Positions 30,828 through 37,380 of a DNA stretch of 38,522 bases are shown in pieces. The notes under the pieces were generated by a model, which did no database searches, was not told the DNA's origin, and saw nothing but the letters and a program-made list of their open reading frames with translations. The stretch covers positions 1 through 38,522 of the forward strand of contig JAKAPQ010000006.1 of NCBI GenBank assembly GCA_021806945.1, given 5' to 3'. Origin of the DNA: a bacterium (GTDB taxonomy: Bacteria > Vulcanimicrobiota > Vulcanimicrobiia > Vulcanimicrobiales > Vulcanimicrobiaceae). Each line of letters begins with the position of its first letter. The first letter of the stretch is position 1. The position numbers and the translations under genes are program-made.

Positions 30828-31610
30828 GTGCTTCTGGTCATAAAATACGGCGGGAACGCCATGGGCGCCGCGGGGGACGAAGCGCTCCTCGAGGAGCTGG
30901 CCCTGCTGGTAGGGGCCGGCCACGAGCCGGTGGTCGTCCACGGCGGAGGGCCCGAGATCGATCGCGCGCTCGCCGAACGCAAGGTGCCGACCACCCGCGT
31001 CGACGGCCTGCGCGTCACCGACGCCTCGACGCTCGTTATCACCGAAGCGGTCCTCTGCGGAACGCTCAACAAACGGCTGGTCCGTGCCTGCCTGCAGCAC
31101 GGTATACCGGCCGTCGGCATATCCGGACAAGACGGCGGCCTCGTGCGAGCGCGGCGCGCGCTCGCTCGCAGCGGCGACGATCTAGGCTTCGTCGGGGAGA
31201 TCGTCTCGGTCGAACCCGCGCTCCTGCGCGTGCTCTCGAACGGCGGCTTCGTGCCCGTCGTCGCGCCGCTCGCGGTCGCGCTCGACGCGGCGCACGCCTA
31301 TAACCTGAACGCCGATACCGCAGCCGGCGCCATCGCGGGCGCGTTACATGCGGATGCCTTCGTCGTCATCACCAACGTCGCGCGCGTCTTGCGCGACCCG
31401 AGCGAGCCCGGCAGCGGCATCGACACCCTCTCGCTCGATCAGGCACGTACCTTCGCCGAATCGGACGGCTGCCGGCAAAGCATGCGTCCGAAGATTCTCG
31501 CTGCCGTCGCCGCGGTCACCGCAGGCGCGCGCGCGAGTTACGTCTGCGCTGCCGGTCCCGGTGCGATCGCTCGCGCCCTCGCTGGAGATGCGACGGTCGT
31601 CGCAGCTTGA
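30828..31610 (+). CDS. argB: Acetylglutamate kinase (GTG start)
   Basis: LLVIKYGGNAMG; VVVHGGGPEID; KVPTTRVDGLRVTD; AYNLNADTAAGAIAGALHAD; MRPKILAAVAAV. Confidence 0.93.
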   Translation: MLLVIKYGGNAMGAAGDEALLEELALLVGAGHEPVVVHGGGPEIDRALAERKVPTTRVDGLRVTDASTLVITEAVLCGTLNKRLVRACLQHGIPAVGISGQDGGLVRARRALARSGDDLGFVGEIVSVEPALLRVLSNGGFVPVVAPLAVALDAAHAYNLNADTAAGAIAGALHADAFVVITNVARVLRDPSEPGSGIDTLSLDQARTFAESDGCRQSMRPKILAAVAAVTAGARASYVCAAGPGAIARALAGDATVVAA

Positions 31611-31636
31611 CGCGCGAGCGGAATCGATGCTATGGT
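31607..31636 (+). promoter_or_regulatory. Putative sigma70-type promoter for met leader
   Basis: TTGACG (31607-31612) - 18 bp - TATGGT (31631-31636); 7 nt before ATG 31644. It overlaps the last codons of argB. Confidence 0.45.
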
Positions 31637-31643
31637 GTCCGCA

Positions 31644-31721
31644 ATGTTTCGGTTGACTATGCGAATGCTTGGTTTTATGTGTTGCACGCAGAGGCGCGCG
31701 GCGCGGGCGGTTTTTGCATAG
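31644..31721 (+). CDS. Putative leader peptide (Met/Cys-rich) MFRLTMRMLGFMCCTQRRAARAVFA
   Basis: 25-aa ORF with 4 Met in 12 codons followed by Cys-Cys, ending 35 bp before a strong terminator and upstream of metY-metX. Confidence 0.5.
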   Translation: MFRLTMRMLGFMCCTQRRAARAVFA

Positions 31722-31756
31722 GCGAGACTCGGAACAAGATCATCGACTGTGACTAA

Positions 31757-31788
31757 AAAGCCCCTCGCCGCTTGCGGCGAGGGGCTTT
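31757..31788 (+). terminator. Intrinsic terminator / putative attenuator upstream of metY
   Basis: AAAAGCCCCTCGCCGC-TT-GCGGCGAGGGGCTTT: 12-bp GC-rich perfect stem extended by A/T pairs, short T-rich tail. Confidence 0.85.
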
Positions 31789-31908: not shown

Positions 31909-33207
31909 ATGTCCCCGACACTCGAAGGACAGCAACCCCGACGATTCGACACCGTCGCAATTCATGGCGGCCACGGCGGCGACCCGACCACCAAAGCGCG
32001 CGCCGTCCCGATCTACCAAACGACGTCCTATACCTTCGACAACGCCGATCATGCCGCACGGCTCTTCGCACTCGAAGAGTTCGGCAATATCTACACCCGC
32101 ATCAACAACCCCACGACCGACGTCCTCGAACAGCGCCTCGCTCAGTTGGAGAACGGCGTCGCCGCGCTCGCCGTCGCGAGCGGTCAGGCCGCTAATCTGT
32201 ACGCTATTCTGAACCTAGCGCGTGCCGGCGATCGCATCGTTTCGTCCGCTTCGCTCTACGGCGGAACCTACAACGCCTTCGCCTACACCCTTCCGCGCTT
32301 CGGCATCGGCGTAGACCTCGTCGACTTCGACGACCTGGCACACGTTCGCGCCGCCGTCGCGCCGAACACCAAAGCGATCTTCGCGGAATCGATCGGCAAC
32401 CCGAAGATCGACGTGCTGGATCTCGAGGGCGTGGCCGCCATCGCGCGCGAGTTCGGCATTCCGCTCATCGTCGACAACACGCTCGCGACGCCGTACTTGC
32501 TGCGCCCCATCGACTACGGTGCGAACGTCGTCGTACACTCGGCGACCAAGTTCATCGGCGGGCACGGCACCGCCATCGGCGGCGTTATTGTCGATGGCGG
32601 AAACTTCGACTGGAGCGCGAGTCCGCGCTTCGCCGATTTCGTCGAGCCGGACCCTTCGTACCACGGCATCCGCTATCACGCGGCATACGCGCAAGCCGCG
32701 TATGCCGTGAAGGCGCGCGTGCAGCTGCTGCGCGATATCGGCGCGGCGCTATCTCCCTTCAACGCCTGGCTGCTCCTGCAAGGCCTCGAAACGCTAGGTT
32801 TGCGCGTCGAACGCCATTGCGCGAACGCCCAAACCGTGGCCGAATACCTCGCCGCGCATCCCAAAGTGGCCTCCGTAGCGTATCCCGGCCTTGCGGGTCG
32901 CGGCTCCAGCGCGCGCGCCCGGAAGTATCTTCCCAAAGGGCAAGGCGCGATTCTCACCTTCCGGATTCGCGGCGGCGAAGCCGCCGCTAAACGCTTCATC
33001 GATCGCTTGAAGCTCTTCTCGCTGCTGGCCAACGTCGGGGACGCGAAGTCGCTCGTCATCCATCCGGCGACGACGACCCACCAGCAACTGAGCGAGCAGG
33101 AGCGCCTACGCAGCGGCATCGACGAATCGACGGTCCGTCTCTCCGTGGGGATCGAAGATGCGCGCGACATCGTCGCCGATCTGGCGCAAGCATTGAGCGA
33201 TGACTGA
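31909..33207 (+). CDS. metY: O-acetylhomoserine sulfhydrylase / aminocarboxypropyltransferase
   Basis: [99 protein letters not shown]. Confidence 0.95.
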
Positions 33208-34201
33208 AACCACGATCGACGTCGGCCGCCTCGACTTGGTCCAAGGCGGCCGTCTAGGCGGCGTACGCCAGCACGTGGCCTGCTACGGCACTCTGAACGC
33301 CGACCGCAGCAACGCCGTATTGGTTCCTCACGCGTTGACGGGCAACAGCCGGGTCGCAGAGTGGTGGAAGGGATTGATCGGCGAGGATCGCCTGCTCGAT
33401 CCGCGCCAATGGTACGTCATCGGCATCAACGCGCTCGGGAGTTGCTACGGTTCGACGGGTCCCGCTACGGCGGCTCCCGACGGCTCACCGTACGGATCGC
33501 GCTTCCCGCAGGTCACCGTGCGCGATATCGTGCGGGCACAGACGCGCGCGCTCGAACGGCTTGGTGTCGAGCGCCTCGCGCTCGTCATCGGCGGATCGCT
33601 CGGGGGCATGCAGGCGCTGCAGTGGGCGGTAGACTTTCCCGAGCGCGTTCGAAACGCGATCGTCATCGGTTCGCACGATCACCACTCGGCGCTGGGCATC
33701 GCCCTCAACGCGGTCCAGCGCGACTGCATTCTGAACGATCCACTCCATGGCATCAGAACCGCGCGCAAAGTCGCCATACTCACCTACAAGAGCGACGCGC
33801 TCCTACGTCAGCGTCACGGGCGCAACACCGACCGAACCGGCCGCCATCGCTTCGACGTCGAGGGGTATTTGGAACACCAAGCCGATCTTTTCGAGCGACG
33901 CATGGACCCAGCCAGTTACGTCGCACTCACCCGCGCGATGGATTCGTTCGACGTTCGCCCCTGTCATGCCGAGCCCGCCGAAGAACGCGCGACGCAAAAT
34001 AGGCCGGCGTTGCGTTTCGTCGGGATATCTTCGGACTGGTTGTTTCACCCGAGCGACGTGCACGCGGCGGCCGGGCGCTTCGCCGCGTCGGGTTTCGACG
34101 CTCGTTATCTCGAGCTGCAGTCCGAGCACGGCCACGATGCCTTTCTCGCAGAGCCGCAAACGCTCGCGGCGCTGTTAGCAGACGAGATCGCGCGGCTATA
34201 G
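33200..34201 (+). CDS. metX: Homoserine O-acetyltransferase (alpha/beta hydrolase)
   Basis: VLVPHALTGNSRVAEWW; WYVIGINALGSCYGSTGP; FPQVTVRDIVRAQ; LVIGGSLGGMQALQWAVDFP; GISSDWLFHPSD. Confidence 0.92.
   Translation: MTETTIDVGRLDLVQGGRLGGVRQHVACYGTLNADRSNAVLVPHALTGNSRVAEWWKGLIGEDRLLDPRQWYVIGINALGSCYGSTGPATAAPDGSPYGSRFPQVTVRDIVRAQTRALERLGVERLALVIGGSLGGMQALQWAVDFPERVRNAIVIGSHDHHSALGIALNAVQRDCILNDPLHGIRTARKVAILTYKSDALLRQRHGRNTDRTGRHRFDVEGYLEHQADLFERRMDPASYVALTRAMDSFDVRPCHAEPAEERATQNRPALRFVGISSDWLFHPSDVHAAAGRFAASGFDARYLELQSEHGHDAFLAEPQTLAALLADEIARL
33962..33994 (+). repeat. Degenerate in-frame copy E of dispersed repeat inside metX
   Basis: tgtcatgccgagcccgccgaagaacgcgcgacg; 19/25 identity to copy B tgtcatcctgagcttgtcgaaggac; encodes CHAEPAEERAT. 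Confidence 0.45.
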
Positions 34202-34224: not shown

Positions 34225-35046
34225 TCATCTCTGCTCGCTACGCGCGCCTTCGAACGCCGCGCGCAGCGGCGCGGCGTCACCCGCCCGCAGCGCGTCGGCC
34301 GCCTCCAACAGCGCCCGCCCGAACGCGCGCGTCTCTTCTTCGACGTTCGCACTATTGTACCGGAGGATCTCGCCCCATATTGTATACGGAGAACGCCCCA
34401 GGCGCCGTAGTTCGCGCGCCGCCGGACCGCATGCGGCATCGGCGCTGCCCGGCGGAAGCGATGCGTTGACGCGCTGCGCGAAGAGCGTGGCGCAGATCTG
34501 CGGCAAGTGCGACGTAAGGGCTACATGCCGGTCGTGCTCCCGTGCATCGATCGCGACGGGCGTTGCGCCGAAGCCGGCGAGGAAAGTGGTTGCGCGCCCG
34601 TCCAGCTCGGCGTCGTGCGACGGAACGTAGAACCACGTTCGCTCTTTGAAGAGCGCCGCACGTGCGGCGGATGCTCCGCTGCGCTCGCCGCCCGCCATCG
34701 GATGCGTGCCGACGAAGCCGGGCAAGCCTTGAGACGCGGCCATCACCGGCGCCTTCACCGATGCGACGTCGAGAATTAGCCGCGCTCGAGCGGGTGGTGC
34801 CTCGCGCAGCGCCTCGAGTTCCGAGAGCGTCGCTTGCAGGTACGGCGCGAGCACGACGACGTCGCTATGCGCGTAGAGCTCGGCGCGCGTCACGCCTGCG
34901 TCGATCGTTTCACACGCGGACGCCTGCACCAGCGCAGCCTCCGACACGTCGTAGCCCAGCACGTGCCAGCCGTTCGCCCGCGCGCACAGCCCGATCGACG
35001 CCCCGATCAGACCGGTACCGACCACTCCGAGAACCGGCGCGGTCAT
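34225..35046 (-). CDS. tyrA: Prephenate dehydrogenase
   Basis: LGVVGTGLIGASIGLCARANGWHVLGYD; FVGTHPMAGGERSGASAARAALFKERTWFYVP; ALTSHLPQICATLFA. Confidence 0.9.
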   Translation of the reverse strand: MTAPVLGVVGTGLIGASIGLCARANGWHVLGYDVSEAALVQASACETIDAGVTRAELYAHSDVVVLAPYLQATLSELEALREAPPARARLILDVASVKAPVMAASQGLPGFVGTHPMAGGERSGASAARAALFKERTWFYVPSHDAELDGRATTFLAGFGATPVAIDAREHDRHVALTSHLPQICATLFAQRVNASLPPGSADAACGPAARELRRLGRSPYTIWGEILRYNSANVEEETRAFGRALLEAADALRAGDAAPLRAAFEGARSEQR

Positions 35047-35417
35047 GACGGTGCCTGCGTGAGGTCCGGCCGCAGCCCGATGGCGCCGTCGAGATAGACG
35101 TGCCGCACCTCCCGCTGACCGCGTTCCGTATTCACGTGCATCAGCACGCGGATGCAGCGGGGCAACGCTCCGGCAACCTCGACCTCCGTGAAGTGCAGCA
35201 TCGGAACGTGCGCCCACCCGAGCTCCCGAGCGCCCAGTGCCGGAAACTGCGCGTGGAGGTCCGCCGTCACGCTGAAGAGGACCGACGCGATGTCATCGAG
35301 CTCGATATCGTTGCGCGCCACTATCTCGCGCAGAAGTCGCTTGGTCGCCACGACGATCGCCTCCGCCTCGTCGCGCTCCACGGTAATCGCGCCACGGATT
35401 CCCCGAATGACCGTCAT
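35043..35417 (-). CDS. aroH: Chorismate mutase, AroH type
   Basis: IRGIRGAITVERDEAEAIVVATKRLLREIVARNDIELDDIASVLFSVTADLHAQFPALGARELGW...VPMLHFTEVEVAGALPRCIRVLMHVNT. Confidence 0.95.
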   Translation of the reverse strand: MTVIRGIRGAITVERDEAEAIVVATKRLLREIVARNDIELDDIASVLFSVTADLHAQFPALGARELGWAHVPMLHFTEVEVAGALPRCIRVLMHVNTERGQREVRHVYLDGAIGLRPDLTQAPS

Positions 35418-37180
35418 CGGCCCGTCACCGGGCTCGGGATGGGAATCCGTCCCAATTCCGCTACGATCTCCGCGAAGTCGTCGAACGTCAACGCCTGCTC
35501 TTTGTCGCTCTTGGCCTCGGCGGGATTGGGGTGCACCTCGACCAGCAGGCCGTGCGCGCCGACAGCCTTGGCCGCGCGACACAGCGGGGCGATCCAACGC
35601 CGCACTCCGACGCCGTGACTCGGATCGACCAGCACGGGCAAGTGCGAGCGTTCGCGCAGAACCGGCACGGCCGAAAGGTCGAGCGTGTTGCGCGTCGCCG
35701 TCTCGAACGTACGGATACCGCGTTCGCACAGGATGACGTTCGGATTGCCTTCGGCCAGGATATACTCGGCGGCCCCCAGGATCTCGTCGATCGTCGCCGA
35801 GAGCCCGCGCTTGAGCAACACGGGATGCCCGGTACGTCCCACGGCCTTGAGCAGATCGAAATTCTGCATGTTGCGCGCGCCGATCTGCAATACGTCGATC
35901 TGTGATGCCATCCGCTCCACCTGATCGATCGTCATCACCTCGCTTACGGTCGGCATCCCGGTCGCACGCCCCGCCTCGGCGAGCAGCGCTACGCCGTCCC
36001 AACCGAGCCCTTGGAACGCGTAGGGGCTCGTGCGCGGTTTGAAGGCGCCGCCGCGCAGCATCACGGCACCCCGCCGCTCTACCGCGTGCGCCGTCGCGAG
36101 AATCTGCTCGCGCGACTCCACCGAACATGGCCCGGCAACGATTACGAACTCGCCGTCGCCGATACGCACGCCACCGATCTGCAACGTGCTGCCCTCCGGG
36201 TGCGCGGCTCGTGAGACGCGCGGCAGCGCTGCATCCGGTGCGACCGACGGCCGCCGCACGTGCCGCGTCTCCGCAATCCCCTCCGCAGTCGCGCGCACCG
36301 GGCCATCGTTTACGCCGATCGGTGCACCTGCGTGTGCGTCGTAGCTCCCAAGTACGACCAGCGTCTTCGCGTCGCGTTTGATGGCGGCAAGCGCCGTCGC
36401 CACGGCCGCGCCGGCGACGTCGCCGTCGAGATCGGCGTAAAACGTGTGTTCGGTGCCGTGCCCGAGGCGCGGCTTCGACTCCAGTTTGCTCAGGTTTACG
36501 CCACCCTGCGCGAGATGCTGCAAGCAGCGCGCCAGCGTACCCGGCGCGTCCTTCAAACTGAATATCAGCGAAGTCTTGCGCCGCGCCGCCGGCACGATCT
36601 GCTCGAGCGGACTGCCCTTGCGCAGATGCGGCGCGCGCACGATCAGGAATCGGGAGTACGTGTGCGGATCGTCGGCGCAGTTCGCGGCAAGTTCGATCAG
36701 ATCGTACATCTGCGCGGCGGCAGCCGGCGCGAGCGCCGCGATAGTGGGATTCCCACCGCGTGCGACCTCGCGCGCCGCGACGCCGGTATCCTCGCACGGG
36801 ATCGCGCGCGCTCGGGCGAGGCCCCCCAAGAACTTGCCGCACTCCGCGATCACGAGCGGATGCGCGAGCACCTCACGCACGCCCTCGAGCGCCGCACCGC
36901 GCACGCCGAGCAAACGGTGATCGGTCCGCCAGAGTACTTCCTCGAGGGGCACCAGCGCGAACTCGGCGACCAAATCGTACGCCTCGCGTACCGTGCCGCC
37001 GATCGCGTTTTCGATCGGGATCGCGCCCACCTCGGCACGCAAGCCGGCGACCGCCGTTGCGACCGCACGATAACTCGGCACGCCGAGCGTCTGCGCGTCG
37101 ATCGCGCGCGCGCGCAGGTAGTGGTCGACGACCAACTGCGAGTACGCTCCATCGACACCCTGGTAAACCGCGACCGTCAC
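35414..37180 (-). CDS. Fusion: prephenate dehydratase (~aa 1-183) + ACT (~201-280) + DAHP synthase (~331-588); GTG start
   Basis: N-term VAVYQGVDGAYSQL...AIPIENAIGGTV; ACT FSLKDAPGTLARCLQHLAQGGVNLSKLESKPRLG; C-term FVIVAGPCSVESREQI...MLRGGAFKPRTSPYAFQGLGWDGVALLAEAG...VDVLQIGARNMQNFDLLKAVG...VLLKRGLSATIDEILGAAEYI...LPVLVDPSHGVG. Confidence 0.95.
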   Translation of the reverse strand: MTVAVYQGVDGAYSQLVVDHYLRARAIDAQTLGVPSYRAVATAVAGLRAEVGAIPIENAIGGTVREAYDLVAEFALVPLEEVLWRTDHRLLGVRGAALEGVREVLAHPLVIAECGKFLGGLARARAIPCEDTGVAAREVARGGNPTIAALAPAAAAQMYDLIELAANCADDPHTYSRFLIVRAPHLRKGSPLEQIVPAARRKTSLIFSLKDAPGTLARCLQHLAQGGVNLSKLESKPRLGHGTEHTFYADLDGDVAGAAVATALAAIKRDAKTLVVLGSYDAHAGAPIGVNDGPVRATAEGIAETRHVRRPSVAPDAALPRVSRAAHPEGSTLQIGGVRIGDGEFVIVAGPCSVESREQILATAHAVERRGAVMLRGGAFKPRTSPYAFQGLGWDGVALLAEAGRATGMPTVSEVMTIDQVERMASQIDVLQIGARNMQNFDLLKAVGRTGHPVLLKRGLSATIDEILGAAEYILAEGNPNVILCERGIRTFETATRNTLDLSAVPVLRERSHLPVLVDPSHGVGVRRWIAPLCRAAKAVGAHGLLVEVHPNPAEAKSDKEQALTFDDFAEIVAELGRIPIPSPVTGR

Positions 37181-37206: not shown

Positions 37207-37233
37207 AAAAAACCCTCGCCGGATCGGCGAGGG
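37207..37233 (-). terminator. Intrinsic terminator / putative attenuator in aromatic leader
   Basis: Minus strand CCCTCGCCG-ATC-CGGCGAGGG followed by TTTTTT, 27 nt upstream of the GTG of the PDT-DAHPS fusion. Confidence 0.9.
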
Positions 37234-37259
37234 CCTGCGAAACCGGGTGCTCTATCCCG

Positions 37260-37343
37260 TTATGCGCAAACGAACCCTAACCGGCCCGGCGGGCGGCGAA
37301 AGTAGTAATAATATGCAAACGCGAGCGAGCGATTCGTCAACAT
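37260..37343 (-). CDS. Putative Phe/Tyr leader peptide MLTNRSLAFAYYYYFRRPPGRLGFVCA
   Basis: 27-aa ORF containing FAYYYYF, ending 26 bp before terminator; directly upstream of aromatic operon on same strand. Confidence 0.8.
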   Translation of the reverse strand: MLTNRSLAFAYYYYFRRPPGRLGFVCA

Positions 37344-37351
37344 GTGCTGCC

Positions 37352-37380
37352 ATAGAACCACGAATCCAGCGCTCTGTCAA
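37352..37380 (-). promoter_or_regulatory. Putative promoter of aromatic leader
   Basis: Minus strand TTGACA (37380-37375) - 17 bp - TTCTAT (37357-37352), 8 nt before leader ATG. Confidence 0.5.

Follow-up and report, generated by a model that had tools for sequence, protein, structure and literature searches.

Upstream of a gene that fuses prephenate dehydratase to DAHP synthase (PDT-DAHPS), the minus strand of the window (the whole 38,522-nt stretch of DNA analysed here) carries a short open reading frame (ORF) with a run of Tyr and Phe codons, followed by a hairpin and a run of T. Does this arrangement form a switch through which the supply of the two amino acids controls transcription of the operon? 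Judging from its sequence elements, from folding and from comparison with relatives, we consider it very probably a ribosome-mediated transcription attenuator responding to Tyr/Phe shortage. The initial annotation had proposed the same reading, which is supported by the conservation of the codon run, the terminator, the antiterminator and the spacing in relatives.

The operon and its leader

Three genes make up the operon:
35414 to 37180, minus strand: PDT-DAHPS fusion (Pfam: PDT at residues 5-183, DAHP_synth_1 at residues 337-574)
35043 to 35414, minus strand: AroH-type chorismate mutase (Pfam CM_1)
34225 to 35217, minus strand: prephenate dehydrogenase (TyrA, Pfam); coordinates are those of the listed ORF, and the real start is probably further in

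The Pfam matches bore out the gene identities proposed earlier, and the operon feeds Phe and Tyr. The fusion gene starts with GTG at 37180 and has GGAGG at 37192-37188 (minus strand). A second, standalone prephenate dehydratase is present in the same genome (G000:C33:6510-7043, L229). No aromatic leader was found upstream of it, nor did a search ahead of standalone prephenate dehydratase genes reveal any leaders.

The following elements were identified ahead of the fusion gene:
37380-37375, minus strand: -35 element TTGACA, read from the sequence; TTGACN is kept at equal distance in relatives
37360-37352, minus strand: extended -10 element TGG-TTCTAT (hexamer 37357-37352); the corresponding position in relatives has TGN-TTNNAT or TANNAC
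37260 to 37343, minus strand: leader ORF MLTNRSLAFAYYYYFRRPPGRLGFVCA, 27 aa, ending in a stop codon at 37262-37260; read from the sequence; 28 genomes have an aromatic leader in the corresponding position
37299 to 37313, minus strand: regulatory codons TAT TAT TAC TAC TTT (YYYYF), read from the sequence
37275 to 37283, minus strand: antiterminator 5′ strand, part 1, CGGTTAGGG, which pairs with CCCTCGCCG at 37233-37225
37264 to 37270, minus strand: antiterminator 5′ strand, part 2, TTTGCGC, of which TTTGCG pairs with CGCAGG at 37239-37234
37225 to 37239, minus strand: antiterminator 3′ strand CGCAGGCCCTCGCCG, which includes the terminator 5′ arm
37207 to 37234, minus strand: intrinsic terminator GCCCTCGCCG-ATC-CGGCGAGGGT with a T run, from sequence and folding

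All of the elements first described (TTGACA-N17-TTCTAT, 8 nt, ATG, the leader ORF, CGGTTAGGG and the hairpin with T6) were recovered on the minus strand where they had been placed. The codon run of the leader, YYYYF, specifies end products of the operon that follows (PDT-DAHPS, chorismate mutase and TyrA), and aromatic runs are kept in relatives. In the sister species (G002), a synonymous TAC/TAT change leaves YYYYF intact. The idea that the combined Tyr and Phe codons match the operon holds for the Y/F run ahead of these Phe/Tyr genes, but it has to be widened, as the leaders of most relatives add Trp codons.

Promoter and probable leaderless start

On the minus strand, 17 nt separate the -35 from the -10 element and 8 nt separate the -10 element from the leader ATG (37343). 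TTCTAT is a weak -10, and a promoter search demanding A at position 2 of the -10 called no promoter at this site because of that very requirement. We also read the DNA upstream of the relatives' leaders, where the -10 and the start codon are 7-10 nt apart with no Shine-Dalgarno-like sequence in between. This spacing and the missing Shine-Dalgarno sequence lead us to infer that the leader mRNA is leaderless and starts at the AUG, with a confidence somewhat below that given to the class of mechanism. Among the 99 family genomes, the pattern TTGACR-N16-18-TANNNT with ATG 6-9 nt further on had 1,116 matches, compared with 107 for the reversed pattern. This roughly tenfold over-representation suggests that leaderless transcripts are common across the family. 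It is improbable that the same switch instead relies on ordinary initiation behind a short 5′ UTR. Such an arrangement gains some room from the degenerate -10 and from the placing of the start site by sequence, but it fits poorly with the 7-10 nt left in relatives and with the family-wide excess at such spacing.

Alternative structures of the leader RNA

An intrinsic terminator lies between the leader ORF and the first gene. Its stem spans 37234-37212 (-19.2 kcal/mol) and its T6 lies at 37212-37207. By folding, the terminators of the relatives' leaders are likewise all strong (about -19 to -29 kcal/mol). The initial annotation had paired CGGTTAGGG with the terminator 5′ arm, and its count of seven Watson-Crick pairs, one GU pair and one mismatch was correct, but the helix is longer than it supposed, since CGGTTAGGG and TTTGCG together pair with CGCAGG and CCCTCGCCG. 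In this genome alone, the antiterminator pairing, with its one mismatch, was no stronger than in shuffled sequences (z about 0). Its significance therefore comes from the relatives and not from this one genome. In G002, a G replaces the mismatched T and the helix is unbroken.

Between the aromatic run and the terminator, relatives keep two pieces, a GC-rich CGGYN..GGG and TTTGCGC, which jointly pair with (C)GCARG and the terminator 5′ arm. TTTGCGC is kept even 3′ of the leader stop codon (L004, L005, L006, L014 and L016). Therefore, the RNA and not the peptide is under conservation there. We folded the downstream part of each leader that a ribosome would leave uncovered. With the ribosome stalled in the middle of the run, this part formed the antiterminator with the terminator 5′ arm in 25 of 25 cases; with the ribosome at the stop codon, it formed the terminator in the same 25. 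The two structures were thus mutually exclusive by folding, and a swap of strands among genomes pointed the same way: over all leaders, same-genome strand pairs had -23.3 kcal/mol and cross-genome pairs -21.0 kcal/mol (permutation P < 0.0002). Within clades, the permutation gave P = 0.007 for the larger and P = 0.046 for the smaller one. Compared with shuffled segments, the Stouffer z was about -10 for the antiterminator (mean z -2.0) and -5.9 for the helix of codons and antiterminator (mean z -1.2), values that are indicative only because the sequences are related.

In the stretch 6-16 nt 5′ of the GCC anchor, the paired bases were seen as GC, CG, UA, AU and GU. In the well-aligned smaller clade of nine sequences, 92.6% of the cells were paired, compared with 41-52% with slid partners; compensatory changes were few. 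Across relatives, the antiterminator strand coevolves with the terminator arm. RNAalifold predicted zero pairs from a 24-sequence leader alignment, in which the helices do not line up in register. Left untranslated, the leader had a minimum-energy fold in which the terminator was formed and the codon region was paired to the antiterminator strand, which implied termination as the default.

The switch may operate as follows. RNA polymerase would start at the leader AUG or no more than about 3 nt from it, and with a start at the AUG a ribosome would load on the leaderless message without a Shine-Dalgarno sequence. A shortage of Tyr-tRNA or Phe-tRNA would stall the ribosome on the YYYYF codons and leave the RNA free from about 14 nt downstream. 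The freed CGGTTAGGG...TTTGCG would then pair with CGCAGG-CCCTCGCCG and remove the terminator 5′ arm, and the polymerase would continue into the three genes of the operon. With an ample supply of both amino acids, the ribosome would reach the stop codon at 37262-37260 and cover the antiterminator strand, and the terminator (37234-37207) would form. Without translation, the aromatic codons would pair with the antiterminator strand, giving termination by default. Masking CGGTTAGGGTTCGTTTGCG of the leader RNA would be expected to raise termination.

Two other uses of these hairpins are very unlikely, to about the same degree. One is a riboswitch or T-box that senses the amino acid or the tRNA directly and makes the ORF incidental. 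The conserved TTTGCGC and the alternative hairpins might bind a ligand, but pairing explains the conserved bases, and the amino acids of the peptide track the downstream enzyme, with Met, Leu/Val and Thr versions in the same genome (see below). In addition, Rfam, with its leader families and T-box, gave no match at the gathering score and no relevant one at E ≤ 5. The other is control of fusion-gene translation, rather than transcription, by hiding of the ribosome-binding site. The hairpin does sit just upstream of the gene, but neither hairpin includes GGAGG at 37192-37188, and the hairpin is followed by a T run.

Conservation among relatives

The family sample comprised 99 genomes, 39 of which have the PDT-DAHPS fusion. 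From reading of the upstream DNA, a complete aromatic leader was present ahead of the fusion gene in 28 of the 39, representing 14 genera. Three loci were incomplete, being truncated at a contig end or broken by a gap (G004, G047 and G133). Genus g19, with eight genomes carrying the fusion gene, had no such leader upstream. It keeps the enzyme without the switch and thus provides a natural comparison. Several of the g19 loci (which include L008, L009, L012 and L061) have a conserved short stretch, GGGCATNACCTGCCGC..CGTATTAA or CGTATAAA, in its stead a short way upstream of the start codon.

A lack of conserved aromatic codons and alternative hairpins in relatives had been named beforehand as evidence against attenuation. 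We found the opposite: the aromatic run, the terminator, the antiterminator and the leaderless spacing are kept across 14 genera. The peptides are alike only in the aromatic core, and their sequence and stop position vary among genera. The core is AYYYYF in the genus of the window. Elsewhere it is VAYYYLQ, AYAYWYSF, SYYAYYSVW, SYAYSFYF, FSFAYWYYYF, SYAYWYF, VYAYAYYF, FSYFAYFF, FYAYYFYW, WSYRYFYA, FGYWYFYA or FGYFGFF, and the weakest leader is L023 (FPDFSF). We scored the layout as TTGAC-N17/18-hexamer, 6 to 11 nt, a start codon and a short ORF with at least four F/Y/W in eight codons. It was present in 20 of 21 upstream regions of relatives and in none of 8,400 dinucleotide shuffles of those regions.

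Even between congeneric species, the upstream sequence has been replaced, while the leader, the promoter and the antiterminator strand stay with the gene. Least likely of all is therefore that the hairpin, a good terminator on its own with its T run, merely ends an upstream transcript beside an accidental aromatic ORF, as the upstream gene is moreover divergent (plus strand) and no long minus-strand gene enters the hairpin. Outside the phylum, the upstream sequences of fusion-gene relatives (Myxococcota, Chloroflexi, Krumholzibacteriota and others) showed no comparable leader by eye.

Other leaderless attenuator candidates

We scanned trpE loci and the regions upstream of standalone DAHP synthase genes. 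Leaderless attenuator candidates were found ahead of a second DAHP synthase beside trpE/trpG in 16 genomes, including that of the window. In the latter, the leader MTVSVSRSYSYWWQTPHSWCR, which contains YSYWW and has a terminator, precedes the standalone DAHP synthase (G000:C20:6883-6922; L237, L297), and the 15 other genomes have aromatic, mostly Trp-rich equivalents. The fusion leaders contained 76 Tyr, 43 Phe and 20 Trp codons, compared with 35 Trp, 15 Tyr and 9 Phe codons in the leaders of the trpE-linked DAHP synthase (Fisher test, P = 5e-10, indicative only because the sequences are related). The two DAHP synthases of a single genome, one with a Tyr/Phe-rich and one with a Trp-rich leader, offer a further natural comparison.

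The window itself contains another candidate, downstream of which lie metY/metX (31909-34201):
31607-31785, plus strand: metY leader candidate MFRLTMRMLGFMCCTQRRAARAVFA, ending in a stop codon, with Met/Cys codons; TTGACG-N18-TATGGT, 7 nt; terminator at 31760-31785

Met/Cys-containing leaders were also found upstream of metY in about ten relatives. Three more leaderless leader ORFs with terminators are located on G000:C33 at 16177, 20234 and 22158 (L298, L299 and L300). The one before acetolactate synthase (ilvB, identified by TIGR00118) is rich in Leu/Val codons, the one before a threonine synthase-like gene in Thr/Ser codons and the one before an aspartokinase-like gene in Met/Thr codons; the last two genes were named from sequence by eye. 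About a dozen relatives have Leu/Ile/Val leaders upstream of ilvB. In the genome of the window, the strict promoter-to-ATG pattern had 18 matches, compared with 0 for the reversed pattern. Among the 18, five are short ORFs (21-27 codons) with a strong terminator behind them, namely those ahead of metY, the second DAHP synthase and the three genes on G000:C33; the matches also include L21-, L27- and ArsR-like genes. The strict pattern needs TA in the -10 and misses the present site; therefore, the number of attenuators is a lower bound. It seems rather likely that this family of Vulcanimicrobiota uses leaderless leader-peptide attenuation as a standard way of controlling amino-acid biosynthesis, with the DAHP synthase isozymes distinguished by the codon content of their leaders and, in one genome, separate attenuators for several genes: PDT-DAHPS (Tyr/Phe), the second DAHP synthase (Tyr/Trp), metY (Met/Cys), ilvB (Leu/Val), threonine synthase-like (Thr) and aspartokinase-like (Met/Thr).

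Comparison with known systems

Ribosome-mediated attenuation by a leader peptide is a classical mechanism. The enterobacterial pheA (pheL) and trp (trpL) operons follow the same logic of codon run, protector, antiterminator and terminator. Their leaders are preceded by ribosome-binding sites and respond to a single amino acid each, and Rfam leader models do not match the present leader. Transcripts that begin at the leader AUG have been described for the leaderless trpL of Sinorhizobium meliloti (PMC7298713) and for the leaderless leuL, trpL and ilvL of Streptomyces lividans (PMC8079986). These belong to Alphaproteobacteria and Actinobacteria, and no Tyr/Phe leader of an aro operon is among them.

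As of 2010, leader-peptide attenuators were documented mainly in Proteobacteria and Actinobacteria, with few in Firmicutes (PMC2965389). Candidatus Eremiobacterota is named Vulcanimicrobiota in current NCBI taxonomy, and our literature search on Eremiobacterota with leaderless or attenuation found no report of such leaders. The class of mechanism is known; newer is its context in this phylum, together with sister leaderless attenuator candidates in the same genome. Attenuators, in leaderless form and for several pathways, would thereby be extended to a mostly uncultured phylum, and operons are gained whose amino-acid signals are legible from sequence.

The closest known system is aroR-aroF of Corynebacterium glutamicum, which likewise has a mixed Phe/Tyr leader upstream of a DAHP synthase operon. 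Its leader has Phe-Tyr-Phe and ribosome stalling raises transcription (Neshat et al. 2014, summarised in PMC11802643; see also PMC4046766), and it reportedly answers to Phe and not to Tyr (PMC11802643, PMC4046766). This cautions against assuming that every Tyr codon of the present leader is sensed. The resemblance noted is a functional one. The present leader belongs to another phylum, has a run of five aromatic codons that in most relatives is mixed with Trp codons, and precedes a PDT-DAHPS fusion followed by genes for chorismate mutase and TyrA.
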